A stretch of 33,647 nucleotides of DNA from contig CAMOYX010000005.1 in NCBI GenBank assembly GCA_946630615.1, positions 1 through 33,647 on the forward strand. Direction: 5' to 3'. The notes under the pieces were generated by a model, which saw only the letters and a list, made by a program, of their open reading frames with translations, was not told the origin of the DNA and ran no database searches. The stretch comes from an uncultured Mycoplasmatota bacterium (GTDB lineage Bacteria; Bacillota_I; Bacilli_A; RF39; UBA660). The translations under genes were made by a program, and so were the position numbers. Shown here one piece after another: positions 1-7,594 of the stretch. Within the stretch, counting starts at the first letter, position 1, and each line of letters starts with the position of its first letter.

Positions 1-8
1 TTATCATA

Positions 9-32
9 GAAAAAGAGAATTTTTACATTCTC
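9..32 (-). terminator. intrinsic terminator of the 56-442 gene
   Basis: GAGAAT/ATTCTC stem followed by a T-run on the minus strand. Confidence 0.55.
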
Positions 33-55
33 CTAATATCTTAATCTTACGATAA

Positions 56-442
56 TTAATTATCAAATCCTTTTTTATTAATAAATAATAAATATATTAA
101 ACTTATAATTACACCAACCACTCCATAAACCGCATCTATTAAATCTACTGTATTTATAAATGGAAATATTGTTTCATAAATAAGATTTATACTTATTAGT
201 ACTAATCCAACTATTACAATAATCCAATATTTCTTTCTATAACATAATAATAAATATCCGATTAAAGTACACAACATTAAACTTATAGTAAAATTAGTTA
301 TATGTGAATTGATTTCTTTTGTTATTACAAAAACATTTTCATTAAATATATTAATCCATCTAATAATTCCTAATATAAAACACAATAAGAATATAAATAT
401 TACTGATATTGTTGTATTTGTTTTGACTTTTCTTATATCCAT
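56..442 (-). CDS. small multi-pass membrane protein, hypothetical
   Basis: ORF with several hydrophobic segments; AGGAGTT Shine-Dalgarno upstream of ATG; hairpin terminator downstream at about 9-32. Confidence 0.65.
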   Translation of the reverse strand: MDIRKVKTNTTISVIFIFLLCFILGIIRWINIFNENVFVITKEINSHITNFTISLMLCTLIGYLLLCYRKKYWIIVIVGLVLISINLIYETIFPFINTVDLIDAVYGVVGVIISLIYLLFINKKGFDN

Positions 443-539
443 TTTTAACTCCTCTACAAATTACCATTTATCTATTTTTTTAATTATAACATAAAACCTA
501 GTTATTTTTTTGACTTACTAATTGCAAAATTACTAAAAA

Positions 540-561
540 CAGATGAGATTTCTCTCATCTG
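540..561 (-). terminator. intrinsic terminator of the TraX-like gene
   Basis: CAGATGAGA-TTTC-TCTCATCTG perfect 9-bp stem, minus-strand T-run. Confidence 0.8.
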
Positions 562-595
562 TTAGTACGGAATATCTTAATCTTCCGAACAATCA

Positions 596-1321
596 TTATT
601 TAAAAATTATTGGTATATTTCCATATATTACTAATCTTATAATTCCTATAATAATTAAATGCAATGGATAATATATGTAAAATAAATATTTCAGATTTAC
701 TTTACCTCTTTCACCATTATATAAATATAATACTGGAATAGTTAAACAAGTAAACAATTGCAACAATCCATATACTTTATCTAGGAAAATAAAATAAACA
801 GTTGCATACATTAATGTTCCAAGCATCATCATTATCATTTGTTTTTTAAAATTGTCTCTATATTTATTCATAAATATTATTGAAAATACAGCTATACAAC
901 TCCAATCTGATGGAAATGTTATTACAAATATTAAAATCATTAATAACACTTTTAACTTTTCGTTTATCTCACTATCAAATATGGCAAGAAGTGCTACTGC
1001 CCAAGCAAGAGACCACATAACACTTGTTCCATTAAATATAGAGTTAGGTATAAAAGGTATACCAAATGCTAAACAGAAAGCAAAATGAGAAATAAATGCA
1101 AATAAAAATAATCTTATTAAATATTTTTTTAAATTATGGGTATGATTATACCCTTCTACGATGAAAAACCACATTATTGGAGCTGTTAATCTTCCAACAA
1201 TATGAAGTAACATTACATACCATATTTTTTGACATCCTGGAAATGCTAACCAAGTTAAATGATCTATTGTCATCGCAATTATTGCGATTAGCTTTAAATG
1301 ATTTGAATTTAATCTTTTCAT
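596..1321 (-). CDS. TraX family membrane protein (acyltransferase-like)
   Basis: MKRLNSNHLKLIAIIAMTIDHL...GRLTAPIMWFFIVEGYNHTHNLKKYLIRLF is typical of TraX-family proteins; start moved from 1405 to the ATG at 1321, which has AAGGTGAT upstream. Confidence 0.8.
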   Translation of the reverse strand: MKRLNSNHLKLIAIIAMTIDHLTWLAFPGCQKIWYVMLLHIVGRLTAPIMWFFIVEGYNHTHNLKKYLIRLFLFAFISHFAFCLAFGIPFIPNSIFNGTSVMWSLAWAVALLAIFDSEINEKLKVLLMILIFVITFPSDWSCIAVFSIIFMNKYRDNFKKQMIMMMLGTLMYATVYFIFLDKVYGLLQLFTCLTIPVLYLYNGERGKVNLKYLFYIYYPLHLIIIGIIRLVIYGNIPIIFK

Positions 1322-1410
1322 TTTATCACCTTTATAATTATACCATACTTTTCTATAGTTTAGATTAATCGCAAGATTACTATATCGTGATTGAATTAGA
1401 TTCAAATTTA

Positions 1411-1480: not shown

Positions 1481-2062
1481 TTATTTATGTCTTTTATTCA
1501 TATAACTAATATATGATTTTATTAAATCTGCATCCATTAAATTTTCAGGTACTTCTTCAGGATTAAAGAATCTTAATCTCTTAGTTTCAGAATCGCCTTT
1601 TAAATTAGAAGCATCTTCCATTGACACATCAGCTAAATATAATGACGTATTATTATAGACAATATCTCCATTCGGATAACTATTCTTTCTAGATTCTCCA
1701 GATAAAGTATCAATTAATTCAATTTCATTAGGATCAAGTTTAATTCCTGTTTCTTCAAAAGCTTCCCTTACTGCAGTGACTCTTAAATCTTCTCCTAAAT
1801 CTTGGCATCCACCAGGAAGGCCCCATTTATCTCTATCAGTTCTTTCTTGTAAAAGAATTTGACCATTTTCATTTCTTATAATAATAGCCGCACCTGTTTG
1901 AATAAATGGTATGTGACTAATTCTATCATCTAAAGCCATTCTAAATAGAACAGGGTAACCGCCATATTTGGCACTTAACTCCAATAATTGTTGTTCATCC
2001 AAGCTTAATATCAAATTTACAAATTCTTCGTGAGTATATTCTCTCATTTTTTTAAAGTTCAT
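1481..2062 (-). CDS. NUDIX hydrolase
   Basis: Nudix box GGCQDLGEDLRVTAVREAFEETGI. Confidence 0.92.
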   Translation of the reverse strand: MNFKKMREYTHEEFVNLILSLDEQQLLELSAKYGGYPVLFRMALDDRISHIPFIQTGAAIIIRNENGQILLQERTDRDKWGLPGGCQDLGEDLRVTAVREAFEETGIKLDPNEIELIDTLSGESRKNSYPNGDIVYNNTSLYLADVSMEDASNLKGDSETKRLRFFNPEEVPENLMDADLIKSYISYMNKRHK

Positions 2063-2672: not shown

Positions 2673-2783
2673 TTTACTTCAACTCCTAAACAAATTACTA
2701 TTTATCTATCAGTTCTAATTATATTATATTTTTAAGTATATTTTTTATTGATTTGATTGGAATATCAAAAAACGTATGTAGAA

Positions 2784-3344
2784 CTAATTTTTAAATTCTT
2801 TTTTAATTTCAATTAGTATGTTTTTATATTTTTCATATAAACCATAATTATTATCATTTATGTCTTTTTTGCCAAACTCTATATAGTCTTCTAAAAATTC
2901 ATCTATTGTATCTTTATTTACTTTATCTTTAATAAGCTCCATACATACTTTTTCGAAACCTCTTATTGCTAATATAGCTAAAACATCATGATAAGTTTTT
3001 TCTGGTATGTTTGATTTTTTATATAAATCCATTACAAGTTCTTCTGTTAAAGGTACTGGATTTTTAACTATAATTTTATTAGTTCTATATATTCCATCCG
3101 GAGTAAACGTACCTGGGCATTTAATAACTTCTGCATCAGGAGGTAACTCAACATCATATAAAGTATCTCCTCGTCTAATCCATCTTATTATACTTTCATA
3201 TGTTGAGAAATTTATTCCTTTAATAGTATCTAAAGTTTTAGCATTAGAATCCCACTCATCACTTATATTAACTTCATTAAGCTTAAATTTTTTACCGCTA
3301 GCATTTGATATATCTTTATCCATTACTCTTACATATTTAGTCAT
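2784..3344 (-). CDS. hypothetical protein, family not recognised
   Basis: 186-aa ORF with AGGAGTT Shine-Dalgarno and a TATAAT-like -10. Confidence 0.65.
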   Translation of the reverse strand: MTKYVRVMDKDISNASGKKFKLNEVNISDEWDSNAKTLDTIKGINFSTYESIIRWIRRGDTLYDVELPPDAEVIKCPGTFTPDGIYRTNKIIVKNPVPLTEELVMDLYKKSNIPEKTYHDVLAILAIRGFEKVCMELIKDKVNKDTIDEFLEDYIEFGKKDINDNNYGLYEKYKNILIEIKKEFKN

Positions 3345-3464
3345 TATATCAACTCCTATATCAATTATACAATAAATTAACCACTGTCATTATGGGTTAT
3401 GACACTTTTATATTTTTTCCTTATAAATCAAGGAATTGAGAACATCAATTTGATTTTAAATACG

Positions 3465-3492
3465 TTTTAGATACTCAAAAAAACGTATCTAA
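3465..3492. repeat. inverted GTATCTAA motif (B-type repeat)
   Basis: TTTTAGATAC-TCAAAAAAAC-GTATCTAA; 8-bp inverted arms; shares CAAAAAAACGTATCTAA with 1411-1427. Confidence 0.6.
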
Positions 3493-3517: not shown

Positions 3518-3547
3518 AAAAAAAGCCTTATTAACAAGGCTTTTTTT
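3518..3547 (-). terminator. intrinsic terminator following the displaced SEC-C tail
   Basis: AAAAAAAGCCTT-ATTAAC-AAGGCTTTTTTT. Confidence 0.8.
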
Positions 3548-3604
3548 ACTTACCACAACATTGTTTATATTTTTTACCACTGCCACATAGCGTCAGAGCG
3601 TTTA
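3546..3604 (-). pseudogene. displaced 3' end of secA (SEC-C zinc-finger tail) or remnant of another SEC-C gene
   Basis: minus-strand reading ...NALTL-CGSGKKYKQCCGK-stop; the same 13 C-terminal residues as intact secA, no intact ORF upstream (in-frame stop). Confidence 0.75.
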
Positions 3605-3613
3605 ATATTTCAG

Positions 3614-3637
3614 TCACTATTTTTCACGATTCTTCAC
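3614..3637. repeat. 10-bp-phased TCAC triplet (left)
   Basis: TCAC at 3614, 3624 and 3634. Confidence 0.55.
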
Positions 3638-3728
3638 TAAACCTTTATACTTTCCCACTTTTATTCATTTTGTATCACTCTTTTTAATGTGAAGAAAAGT
3701 GATGAAGAATGAAAAAAAGATACCTATT

Positions 3729-3751
3729 GGTATCTAAAAAGGTATCTAATT
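3729..3751. repeat. direct repeat flanking the P-loop gene pair (left copy)
   Basis: GGTATCTAAAAAGGTATCTAATT, 22/23 match to 5018-5039. Confidence 0.75.
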
Positions 3752-4298
3752 AATTCAAAATTTTGTTTAATAAATTGTTCAATACTTCTTTTCTTTCATC
3801 ACCTGATTTAGTATCTACTAAAGTCACATTGTATTTATCACATTCTTCTACAAGCATTTTATTTCTATCAAAAAATCTATCTACACAACTATTTAAGTAT
3901 TCTTCATTAACTTGTGCTATCCAATCAGTTGGTTTTGCATAGTGAACTACATTGTATTTTATTTCCTCTTTTGTACATTCAGGATATGCTAAGAAGTATA
4001 CTTCTACTTTATTCTTATTTTGTAATTTATCAATATCAGCAGGCAAATAATCATACATATCTATAACTATATTAATATCTTCATTTTCTGATTCATTTAT
4101 TGCTTCATTAACTACAGATTCAAAATAATTGAATTTCTTTTCTTCACTTAAATCATCAAAATTAATATTTAATCCATCTTCTATATATGTATTTAATAAA
4201 TCAAACGATATTCTATTAAATCCTTCTTTTTGAAGCATGTAAGCTAGTGTTGTTTTTCCACTCCTTGCATTACCTCCTAATATTACTACTTTTGCCAT
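3750..4298 (-). CDS. P-loop AAA/kinase-like protein
   Basis: Walker A GGNARSGKTTL near the N-terminus; ATG preceded by AAGGTG. Confidence 0.75.
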   Translation of the reverse strand: MAKVVILGGNARSGKTTLAYMLQKEGFNRISFDLLNTYIEDGLNINFDDLSEEKKFNYFESVVNEAINESENEDINIVIDMYDYLPADIDKLQNKNKVEVYFLAYPECTKEEIKYNVVHYAKPTDWIAQVNEEYLNSCVDRFFDRNKMLVEECDKYNVTLVDTKSGDERKEVLNNLLNKILN

Positions 4299-4932
4299 TT
4301 ATAACACCTTCCATTCTATATGATCCTGTAAGTGATTCTATTATATATATTGGTATGTCATAATTACTAAATGTACTTATGACATCTTCTTTATGTTTTT
4401 CCTGTTTTAAAGGAATAGTTTTAATTAATCTTTCTTTTTCATCTTCATTATCTAGTTCTTTAAACCAGGTTTTACTTTCTATCCTTCTTTTTAATTCTTC
4501 TTCATTTGTTACCTGTAAAACAAATGCTTCTATTCTTAAATTTTCTAATCCAGAATATTTATTTAAAAAGTTGCCTATTATATTACCTCTTTTAAGATTC
4601 ATATCATTTACTTGGCCTTTGATTAATAAAATATCATTATTGCTTTTAATAAAATTATCTGTATCATACATGATTCCAGTTCTTCTTTGAAGTGCCTCTT
4701 TTTTATTAAAATATAAGTTATCTTCTTCGATTAATGAATCATCATAATATGTATTATCTTCTATGGTTCCATAATCACTATTTCTATCTTCTAGAGTTAT
4801 TTCACTAATACTTATTTTTTTACCACTCATATTAAATATATTTAAAGTATTAATATCTCTATTATAAAGATTATTAATTAGAGTAATTTTTCCTGTTGCT
4901 GATTCACCAAATATCCATATTATTCTTTTCAT
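4270..4932 (-). CDS. P-loop NTPase-like protein with altered Walker A (GESATGKI)
   Basis: MKRIIWIFGESATGKITLINNLY; start reassigned from 5001 to the ATG at 4932 with GGAAGTGA upstream; overlaps the next ORF by 29 nt. Confidence 0.7.
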   Translation of the reverse strand: MKRIIWIFGESATGKITLINNLYNRDINTLNIFNMSGKKISISEITLEDRNSDYGTIEDNTYYDDSLIEEDNLYFNKKEALQRRTGIMYDTDNFIKSNNDILLIKGQVNDMNLKRGNIIGNFLNKYSGLENLRIEAFVLQVTNEEELKRRIESKTWFKELDNEDEKERLIKTIPLKQEKHKEDVISTFSNYDIPIYIIESLTGSYRMEGVINGKSSNIRR

Positions 4933-4990
4933 TTTTTCACTTCCAATGCCTTTGAGTTCTTTAACTAAATTATATAATATTTTTGTAAGC

Positions 4991-5014
4991 AAAAAGACCA
5001 TTTCTGGTCTTTTT
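4991..5014 (-). terminator. intrinsic terminator downstream of secA
   Basis: AAAAAGACC-ATTTCT-GGTCTTTTT. Confidence 0.8.
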
Positions 5015-5017
5015 CAG

Positions 5018-5039
5018 GGTATCTAAAAGGTATCTAATT
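5018..5039. repeat. direct repeat flanking the P-loop gene pair (right copy)
   Basis: GGTATCTAAAAGGTATCTAATT. Confidence 0.75.
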
Positions 5040-5062
5040 CACGTTTTTTCACTTTTTCTCAC
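5039..5062. repeat. 10-bp-phased TCAC triplet (right)
   Basis: TCAC at 5039, 5049 and 5059. Confidence 0.55.
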
Positions 5063-5092
5063 TTATCAATCTTCTAAAACCCTTGATTTTAC

Positions 5093-7594
5093 TTACTTTC
5101 CGCAGCACTGCTTATACTTCTTGCCACTTCCACATGGACACAAATCGTTTCTCTTTATCTTCTTGTCATTTTTAACTGTTTTAACTTTTTTATCTCCATC
5201 TTGTTTAGTGTCATTAGTTTTACCTGAATTTAATGTTTGTGTCATTTGAGTATTTTGTTCAATATTAGCTTTTAATAAGAACTTAGCAATTGATTCATCA
5301 ATTTGATTTAATAATTGTTCAAACATATTATATCCTTCCATAGTATATGCTTGTAAAGGATTAGTTTGAGCATATTGTCTTAAGAAGATACCTTCTTTTA
5401 AAGCTTCCATAGCATTTAAGTGTTCTACCCATAAGTTATCAATAATTCTAAGAGAAATAGCTCTTTCAAATTCTTCAAAATGAGGAGCATCAGCTATCTT
5501 AGCTTCATAGTCTTCATTTACAAGGTCAGTAATAAAATCAATTACTCTTGCTTCTTCTTTATTCCACTTACTAATATCATCTTTATTTAACTTAGTAGTC
5601 TTTAAGAAGTTAGTATTAACATATTCTTCAATTTCTTCAAAGTCTTTATCTGTTAAGTATCCTTCAGGAGCTAAGTGTCCAGTTACTAAGTCTTCAATAG
5701 TATTTCTAAATGTTTCTTTAATTGAATCATGAATAGATTCATTATCAATTATTTCATTTCTTTGTTCATAAATGATTCTTCTTTGTTCATTAACTACGTT
5801 ATCGTAATCAAGTAAGTTCTTACGCATATCATAGTTGTTACCTTCTACCTTCTTTTGAGCACTTTCAATAGATCTAGTTAATGATTTAGAACGAATTGCT
5901 TGATCTCCAGTTAAACCTAATGCAATAACCATGTTCTTAACTTTATCTGTACCAAATCTTCTCATTAAGTCATCTTCAAAAGATACGAAGAATTGAGAAA
6001 CACCTGGATCTCCTTGACGTCCTGATCTACCTCTTAATTGGTTATCAATACGTCTTGATTCATGTCTTTCAGTACCGATTACATAAAGTCCACCTAGTTC
6101 TCTTACACCTTCACCAAGTTTAATATCTGTACCACGACCTGCCATGTTAGTAGCAATAGTAATAGCACCTTTTTCACCAGCATGAGAAATAATTTCAGCT
6201 TCTCTTACATGATTCTTAGCATTTAATACTTCATGAGGTAATTTAGCTTTAGTAAGCATCTTAGATAATAACTCATTCATTTCTACTGATATAGTACCAA
6301 CAAGAATTGGTTGACCAGTTTTATGAATTTCTTCAATACATTTTACAATAGCTTGGAATTTACCATCTATAGTTGAGTAAACTAAATCTGGTAAATCTTT
6401 TCTTTGAATTGGTTTATTTGTTGGTATTTGAATAACATACATGTTATAAATATCTCTAAACTCTTCTTCTTCAGTCTTAGCAGTACCAGTCATACCAGCT
6501 AGCTTTTTATACATTCTAAATAAATTTTGATATGTAATAGTAGCCATTGTTCTAGTTTCTTCATTAATATGAACGCCTTCTTTAGCTTCAATAGCTTGGT
6601 GTAGACCTTCACTAAATTGTCTACCTTTCATTAAACGTCCAGTAAATTGGTCAACTATAACGATTGCTCCATTATCAACTACATAGTCTACATCTTTATT
6701 AAATCCATAATTAGCTTTTAAAGCATTATTAACGTGATGTACTAATGCAGAGTTTTCAGAATCATATAAATTATTTAAATTAAATATTTTTTCTAAATGA
6801 GCTGCACCTTTTTCAGTAATAGATACATTTCTTGTTTTTTGATCTAAAGTATAATCTTCTTCATCTAATGCCTTAACTGCAATATCAGCTTTAGTATATA
6901 ATTCAGCTGCATTTTGTTTACCACCAGAAATAATTAATGGTGTTCTAGCTTCATCGATTAGGATACTATCTACTTCGTCTACAATAGCAAAGTTAAGTGG
7001 TCTTAATACCCTATCTTCTTTTCTAACTACCATGTTATCTCTTAAGTAATCAAAACCTACTTCATCATTAGTAGAGTAAGTTATATCACAATTATAAGCT
7101 TCTCTTTTTTGCTCAGGATTCATTTGTTTCATATTTAATCCTACAGTTAAACCAAGGAATCTAAATACTCCACCCATCCATTCTGAGTCTCTCTTTGCAA
7201 GGAACTCATTAACTGTAATGATATGTACGCCTTCACCAGTTAAAGCATTTAAGTAAGCTGGCATAGTTTCAGTAAGAGTCTTACCTTCACCAGTTTTCAT
7301 TTCAGATATGTTACCAAAATGAATTGCTAAAGCACCTAAGATTTGTACATAGTATGGTTTTTCACCAAGTACACGGAAGTCTGCTTCTCTAACAACTGCA
7401 TAAGCATCTACCATAATATCTTCTAAGTCTTCACCATTAGCTAGTCTTGTCTTAAATTCAGTAGTTTTAGCTTTTAATGCATCATCAGATAATTTAGCCA
7501 TTGTATCTTCTTTAGCTACAATTAAATCTGCAATCTTTCTAAATTTTTGTAATTCTTTATATTCACTATCAAACAACTTTGTTAATATTCCCAT
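5093..7594 (-). CDS. secA: preprotein translocase ATPase SecA
   Basis: MKTGEGKTLTETMPAYLNAL, DEVDSILIDEARTPLIISG, GRGTDIKLG, C-terminal SEC-C CPCGSGKKYKQCCGK. Confidence 0.98.
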   Translation of the reverse strand: MGILTKLFDSEYKELQKFRKIADLIVAKEDTMAKLSDDALKAKTTEFKTRLANGEDLEDIMVDAYAVVREADFRVLGEKPYYVQILGALAIHFGNISEMKTGEGKTLTETMPAYLNALTGEGVHIITVNEFLAKRDSEWMGGVFRFLGLTVGLNMKQMNPEQKREAYNCDITYSTNDEVGFDYLRDNMVVRKEDRVLRPLNFAIVDEVDSILIDEARTPLIISGGKQNAAELYTKADIAVKALDEEDYTLDQKTRNVSITEKGAAHLEKIFNLNNLYDSENSALVHHVNNALKANYGFNKDVDYVVDNGAIVIVDQFTGRLMKGRQFSEGLHQAIEAKEGVHINEETRTMATITYQNLFRMYKKLAGMTGTAKTEEEEFRDIYNMYVIQIPTNKPIQRKDLPDLVYSTIDGKFQAIVKCIEEIHKTGQPILVGTISVEMNELLSKMLTKAKLPHEVLNAKNHVREAEIISHAGEKGAITIATNMAGRGTDIKLGEGVRELGGLYVIGTERHESRRIDNQLRGRSGRQGDPGVSQFFVSFEDDLMRRFGTDKVKNMVIALGLTGDQAIRSKSLTRSIESAQKKVEGNNYDMRKNLLDYDNVVNEQRRIIYEQRNEIIDNESIHDSIKETFRNTIEDLVTGHLAPEGYLTDKDFEEIEEYVNTNFLKTTKLNKDDISKWNKEEARVIDFITDLVNEDYEAKIADAPHFEEFERAISLRIIDNLWVEHLNAMEALKEGIFLRQYAQTNPLQAYTMEGYNMFEQLLNQIDESIAKFLLKANIEQNTQMTQTLNSGKTNDTKQDGDKKVKTVKNDKKIKRNDLCPCGSGKKYKQCCGK

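Follow-up and report, generated by a model that had tools for sequence, protein, structure and literature searches.

SCC elements of staphylococci are composite islands that accrete at the 3' end of rlmH and use serine recombinases. In elements of the Tn916 and lambda type, direct repeats inside the ends act as arm sites, which are bound by the N-terminal domain of the integrase. Elements that have lost their integration and transfer genes, and kept attL and attR, are referred to as CIMEs (PMC5704250). They are described as decayed ICEs or IMEs, with tandem accretion at the 3' ends of genes (PMC5704250; Pavlovic 2004 and Bellanger 2011, as cited therein). Integron arrays without an integrase are called CALINs (PMC11389934). 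Phage satellites, e.g., PICIs, PICMIs and tycheposons (PMC10803314, PMC11389934), typically span 7-20 kb and encode their own integrase (PMC13376191).

The window, i.e., the whole stretch of 33,647 nucleotides from an uncultured Mycoplasmatota bacterium that was analyzed, harbors at the 3' end of secA a unit that resembles each of these systems in part. As in CIMEs, attL and attR are kept, integration genes are absent, the end of the target gene is restored and units accrete in tandem at one site, but the secA units are cassettes of 0.9-5 kb with phage-type ends and a standard design, found in many genera. The only autonomous element found with cassette-type ends was a phage; no ICE was seen. 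CALINs are similar in that small tandem units in a fixed orientation carry accessory cargo and depend on a recombinase acting in trans, but the att sites of the secA cassettes are double-stranded and of the phage type, there is no IntI, and many of the cassettes carry their own promoter. As judged from the core and arm sequences, the units display secA-end cores with paired arms where an integron would display attC hairpins, and no integron integrase was found in the window. The cassette works like a CIME and like a CALIN and is assigned to neither: an origin from an ICE or IME is at most a possibility, and the integron features are absent.

Phage satellites are likewise small elements with ends that match those of a helper-type phage, but the secA cassettes are smaller and contain no integrase or replication gene; the window cassette has neither the integrase nor the regulatory and replication genes of a satellite. 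SCC elements share accretion at the 3' end of a single housekeeping gene, but are larger and depend on another recombinase family, while Tn916- and lambda-type elements share direct repeats inside the ends, from which the secA cassettes differ by an 11-bp/12-bp asymmetry of these repeats and by the secA core. The open-access papers searched contained no account of an attachment site in secA.

A probable gene cassette in the 3' end of secA

A first-pass annotation of this DNA had pointed to a direct repeat, GGTATCTAAAAAGGTATCTAATT (3729-3751) and GGTATCTAAAAGGTATCTAATT (5018-5039), around two P-loop genes. The reported difference of one A between the copies was confirmed exactly on re-inspection, and the match had been considered too long for chance. 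The 9-mer GGTATCTAA is found four times in the window compared to 0.31 expected (0 of 100 shuffles reached four), each time inside one of the two repeats. Each repeat is itself a doublet with a period of 11-12 bp, as had been noted; the period is 11 bp in the copy at 5018-5039 (left) and 12 bp in the copy at 3729-3751 (right), as in most of the class of elements described below. A genome-wide search, which had been proposed as a check, found the doublet at only these two places in the 800,188-bp assembly, with 0 matches for a reversed control pattern.

The repeats do bracket two overlapping minus-strand ORFs and a terminator-like repeat (4991-5014), but the unit extends beyond them. A second copy of the final 13 codons of secA, diverged and in frame (LCGSGKKYKQCCGK*), is found at 3546-3589, 1547 bp downstream. 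The P-loop pair is therefore located between two copies of the secA 3' end, and the unit spans 1547 bp with its ends outside the doublets, which are found 94 bp (left) and 165 bp (right) inside the secA-end copies. The features are, in window coordinates:

5093..7594, minus strand: secA, whose last codons (CPCGSGKKYKQCCGK*) hold the proximal attachment site (attL)
5130..5136, minus strand: proximal 7-bp overlap CATGTGG in secA, the presumed crossover region according to attL/attR identity over 60 intervals
5018..5037, minus strand: arm doublet of the left end, TTAGATACCTTTTAGATACC, with a period of 11 bp and a distance of 94 bp from the core
4991..5014, minus strand: terminator-like hairpin AAAAAGACCAGAAATGGTCTTTTT; a similar left end with a hairpin is found in one cassette of L099
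4270..4932 (or -5001), minus strand: cargo gene 1, 220 aa (243 aa from an upstream ATG), P-loop-like
3750..4298, minus strand: cargo gene 2, a 182-aa P-loop protein with an NMP/small-molecule kinase fold (predicted)
3729..3749, minus strand: arm doublet of the right end, TTAGATACCTTTTTAGATACC, with a period of 12 bp and a distance of 165 bp to the distal core
3719..3725, plus strand: inverted third arm, AGATACC on the plus strand; similar inverted copies are found in the right ends of L200 and L195
3546..3589, minus strand: displaced second secA 3' end (attR), overlap TATGTGG at 3583-3589, CGSGKKYKQCCGK* frame intact

Judging by its sequence, the stretch 3583-5136 is very probably a mobile gene cassette that is non-autonomous and has entered secA at its 3' end. 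According to ORF and Pfam analyses it contains the two P-loop genes only, and no integrase or transfer gene. Because no near-identical copy of the P-loop cassette was found elsewhere, its recent mobility is deduced from that of its class. The structure is larger and more general than first described, and the initial idea was right in kind.

Recurrence behind secA in gut Bacilli

In the genomes of the genus, a duplicated secA end is found 1.2-3.8 kb downstream of secA, and 7 of the 12 genomes with at least 1.5 kb of downstream sequence have such an extra end. Related named public MAGs share the duplication (an extra end at 9 of the 28 named loci in which the sequence continues for 4 kb or more beyond secA), and one of these, L062, has a run of five extra copies. 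A pool of 50 oriented loci yielded 109 cores, 0 of them antisense, which define 60 core-to-core intervals of 878-4892 bp (median 1951) in arrays of up to six in a row. No core was found in 392,523 bp of sequence upstream of secA. Of 32 secA loci that belong to other groups, 31 displayed a single core. The window unit is very probably one of dozens of integrase-less cassettes that pile up behind secA in gut Bacilli.

Outside the main group, the secA locus of L102 (Tenericutes MAG AS09scLD_189) has three secA-end cores. Separately, ORFs of ~630 aa that end in a SEC-C motif are found in G009:C22 (near 7948 and 12365), G010:C10 and G017:C98, two of them 4.4 kb apart in G009.

Probable crossover site and transfer between species

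Over the 60 intervals, attL and attR are 88-100% identical at the seven positions of CATGTGG (-5 to +1), including two synonymous positions; identity is ~30% to the left of this sequence and, immediately to its right, 38-58% at those codon positions that vary. This pattern would place strand exchange in CATGTGG, i.e., in the Pro-Cys-Gly codons of the SEC-C motif, such that secA would take its last codons from the incoming element. The doublets themselves are not the crossover points; these lie in the secA 3' end and its displaced copy. A short overlap identical at both ends was found together with a restored target gene, as in elements moved by tyrosine integrases.

In L234 and L235, which are different genera by the labels of the search tool, a 962-bp cassette is identical from core to core (0 mismatches) and bounded at CCTTGTGG, next to secA genes that are only 69.4% identical. 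These sequences strongly support precise transfer of cassettes between species. Between cores, a sequence of 30-40 bp is conserved fairly well and might allow pairing, and copies of the secA end might in principle have spread by homologous recombination between repeats, or by tandem duplication, i.e., without any site-specific recombinase. This explanation is highly improbable because the identical cassettes end exactly at CCTTGTGG with no identity beyond it on the secA side, duplicated blocks never reach upstream into secA, and the arm doublets at fixed distances would be left unexplained.

Residues of the zinc motif vary in element-borne or displaced secA ends, e.g., in L055, L062 and L200 (CCGK compared to CHGK or CHGR), and insertions may therefore change the metal-binding tail of SecA.

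Arm doublets

In most intervals, a paired repeat is found at a distance of ~75-130 bp inward of the left core, and again ~96-175 bp inward of the right core. The motif varies by element (TTAGATACC, -CG, -CAG, -AAG, TTAGATCAG, TACATACG), and another arm class includes GTTTCCA, GTCCACA, TTCCTCA, TGTTTGC and others. Among 25 scorable cassettes of the TTAGATAC class, 22 have a left doublet with a period of 11 bp, and all 25 have a right doublet with a period of 12 bp. The one-A difference seen in the window is thus a property of the class. The left and right variants within one cassette agree in 20 of the 25, compared to 8.1 upon shuffling (p<1e-4); the departures are three left doublets with a period other than 11 bp and five mismatches between left and right variants.

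In a blind test, the right-hand doublet alone was used as a query against 291 genomes of the family, with the reversed pattern as a control. The doublet turned out to be rare and unscattered in these relatives (40 sites in 24 of the 291 genomes; 0 control matches). The sequence was long enough for a reading at 30 of these sites, 25 of which had a secA-end core at the expected place, 115-172 bp further on, compared to 4% of random windows of the same core-rich loci. The five sites without a core at the expected distance are one within a coding stretch (L198) and those of L190, L194, L211 and the first of L210, where the ends are apparently fused or eroded.

These data support the earlier suggestion that the doublets resemble recombinase or integrase arm sites, as does the observation of the same doublets, core and spacing in integrase-bearing prophages (see below). 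One doublet of the window adjoins a terminator and the other is found at an ORF end, as would be expected if they were regulator-binding or terminator-linked repeats of a P-loop operon with no role in recombination. Such a function is the least credible of the explanations considered here, given that in many genomes these doublets border unrelated cargo at a fixed distance from the secA core, and that they are also found at both ends of an integrated phage.

Cargo

Of 108 ORFs in the intervals, 104 are oriented as secA, and an extended -10 box is found upstream of or near the first ORF in 45 of 59 cases, compared to 31% of random windows. The commonest cargo genes encode acetyltransferases and NUDIX proteins; PADLOC matches, which are family matches only, include a retron-type reverse transcriptase and candidate defence families. 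Most of the cargo resembles cellular accessory genes rather than phage structural genes.

The 182-aa protein of the window cassette is confidently modeled (pLDDT 94) with an NMP/shikimate-kinase-like P-loop fold; its homologues are distant (at most 33% identity) and no close relatives were found in viral contigs. The 220-aa protein has a degenerate Walker A motif, GESATGKI, and matches no Pfam family; a single-sequence fold gave a pLDDT of 32.6, and homologue searches of 37 genus and 395 class genomes returned no clear homologue. For neither protein did PDB sequence searches give a meaningful match. The module between the repeats is not invariant among relatives: neither of these two genome sets yielded a close homologue.

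A homologue of the 182-aa protein in L177 (280-1392, minus strand) is, as judged by eye, fused to an N-terminal macro-domain-like stretch, which may point to some connection with ADP-ribose or a similar nucleotide as substrate. An unusual cargo, also identified by eye, is an apparently complete class I lysyl-tRNA synthetase in a 2.3-kb cassette (L080:11198-12769, plus strand). Homologous cargo (78% nucleotide identity over 478 bp) is found in the G021 cassette (L034) and in the L234/L235 cassette between different arm motifs, GAGCCA and AGATAAG, respectively, which suggests that cargo moves between cassette classes.

Phages that target secA and their integrases

A scan of viral contigs for the doublet identified four phages in which a secA-end core and a doublet with the same spacing adjoin a gene for a tyrosine integrase of 373-376 aa (a 219-aa part on locus L169). 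The contigs L163, L164, L166 and L170 matched the doublet without a secA core and were set aside. Of the four phages with a core, the siphovirus prophage G046 is a complete insertion: 37.2 kb separate the secA ends on either side, and the doublets have a period of 11 bp on the left and of 12 bp on the right. It encodes an integrase beside attL and contains repressor, Erf, SSB, terminase, portal, head and tail genes. The cognate integrase is found beside the same ends in autonomous relatives, i.e., in phages L165, L167 and L168 and at loci L243 and L245.

Integrases related to that of the phage are encoded in 135 of the 291 family genomes. Among the 30 loci with such homologues that were inspected, the closest (62% identity) and one at 52% are located at secA with the doublets AGATACC and AGATAAG, both of which are also found in cassettes; other relatives are located elsewhere, with other doublets. 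Related integrases in L264, L270 and L272 adjoin other targets with AGATACCAA-type doublets, and paired arms therefore look like a general habit of this integrase family.

The small cassettes of the TTAGATAC class lack an integrase, so that the enzyme would have to come in trans; the most plausible source, given the shared ends, would be the phage integrase. No integrase related to it was found in the window's own genome, but this genome is an 87%-complete draft and the gene could be in the missing part. The recombinases found in this genome are Xer-like only. A host Xer recombinase was considered as the mover of the cassettes, but an enzyme of the phage type is favored here, in view of the arm-type architecture and of a phage whose ends are the same. 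At the same secA site, several relatives carry larger, integrase-bearing elements with other arm motifs, and more than one integrase family may therefore be involved.

Proposed mechanism

The preferred model, to which we assign a probability of about 85%, is that of non-autonomous, often promoter-bearing cassettes, which are moved in trans by secA-targeting phage integrases and accrete in integron-like arrays. The tyrosine integrase of a secA-targeting temperate phage, or a relative thereof, would bind the paired 9-bp arm sites inside each end and swap strands in the 7-bp core CATGTGG in the Pro-Cys-Gly codons of secA, such that the cassette integrates or excises. Insertion would supply secA with the cassette's own last ~12 codons and push the old secA end downstream, where it would serve as attR and as a site for further accretion. 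Cassettes usually contain one to three genes, often with their own promoter and almost always in the orientation of secA. Cassette DNA could pass between cells by packaging, by co-transfer beside an integrated phage or by uptake of free DNA. The duplicated core, the arm architecture, the position of the overlap, the precise transfer between species and the phage with the same ends are read from the sequences themselves; the action of the phage integrase on the cassettes, the arms that it contacts and the route between cells are deduced from them.

Alternatively, the cassettes could be decayed prophages or islands, i.e., an immobile graveyard formed by accretion after deletions in secA-integrated phages had spared only the two ends and a small number of genes. 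A prophage that integrates at secA and shares these ends does exist, larger intervals of relatives contain broken integrases, and the further array of the window is eroded. Nevertheless, this scenario is unlikely, considering that the whole L234/L235 cassette is identical in two species with 69% identical secA genes and that NUDIX cargo of the window is 99% identical in another host. In addition, the cargo is mostly of a cellular accessory type rather than phage structural, its orientation is biased 104:4 and the arm variants match within a cassette.

In the model of cassettes moved in trans, these elements would account for one source of gene turnover in those gut Bacilli that have reduced genomes and are mostly uncultured, and the C-terminal codons of an essential secretion gene would be repeatedly replaced by mobile DNA. 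They would also offer a catalogue of accessory genes (acetyltransferases, NUDIX hydrolases, candidate-defence matches, a retron-type reverse transcriptase and P-loop pairs), for which a secA end and an 11-bp doublet, followed by a 12-bp doublet and a secA end, could serve as a signature in automatic searches. In a broader interpretation, for which we consider the odds even, the clade-wide secA array would be a second bacterial gene-cassette platform beside integrons, where any available secA-specific phage integrase shuffles minimal cassettes (phage attachment ends, promoter, one to three accessory genes) between species and each insertion rewrites the C-terminal zinc tail of SecA.

Eroded cassettes further along the window

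Beyond the P-loop cassette, the array in the window is eroded, with the following features:

3455..3492, minus strand: repeats that resemble arms (TTAGATACG and inverted GTATCTAAAACGTATTTAAA), left end of the next cassette, which is eroded
2784..3344, minus strand: 186-aa ORF of this second, eroded cassette; L228 has an intact 1417-bp cassette with cargo that is 42% identical
2763..2780, minus strand: possible remnant of a right arm doublet (TACATACGTTTTTTGATA), tentative
1481..2062, minus strand: NUDIX gene; behind secA in L079, an intact cassette of 972 bp carries cargo with 99% amino acid identity
1419..1440, minus strand: arm doublet TTTTAGATACAGTTTAGATACG, located where the NUDIX cassette ends and apparently joined to an end of the left type

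The DNA stretch with the NUDIX gene and its right doublet is 96% identical between the window and L079, compared to 73% for secA. In window 1-1400, no core was found; this region, beyond the NUDIX gene, contains a TraX-family gene (596-1330) and a 128-aa ORF (56-442), which may be further eroded cassettes. Repeats at the gene starts (2059-2087 and 3341-3369) are shared ribosome-binding leaders, and similar leaders precede the genes of intact cassettes.
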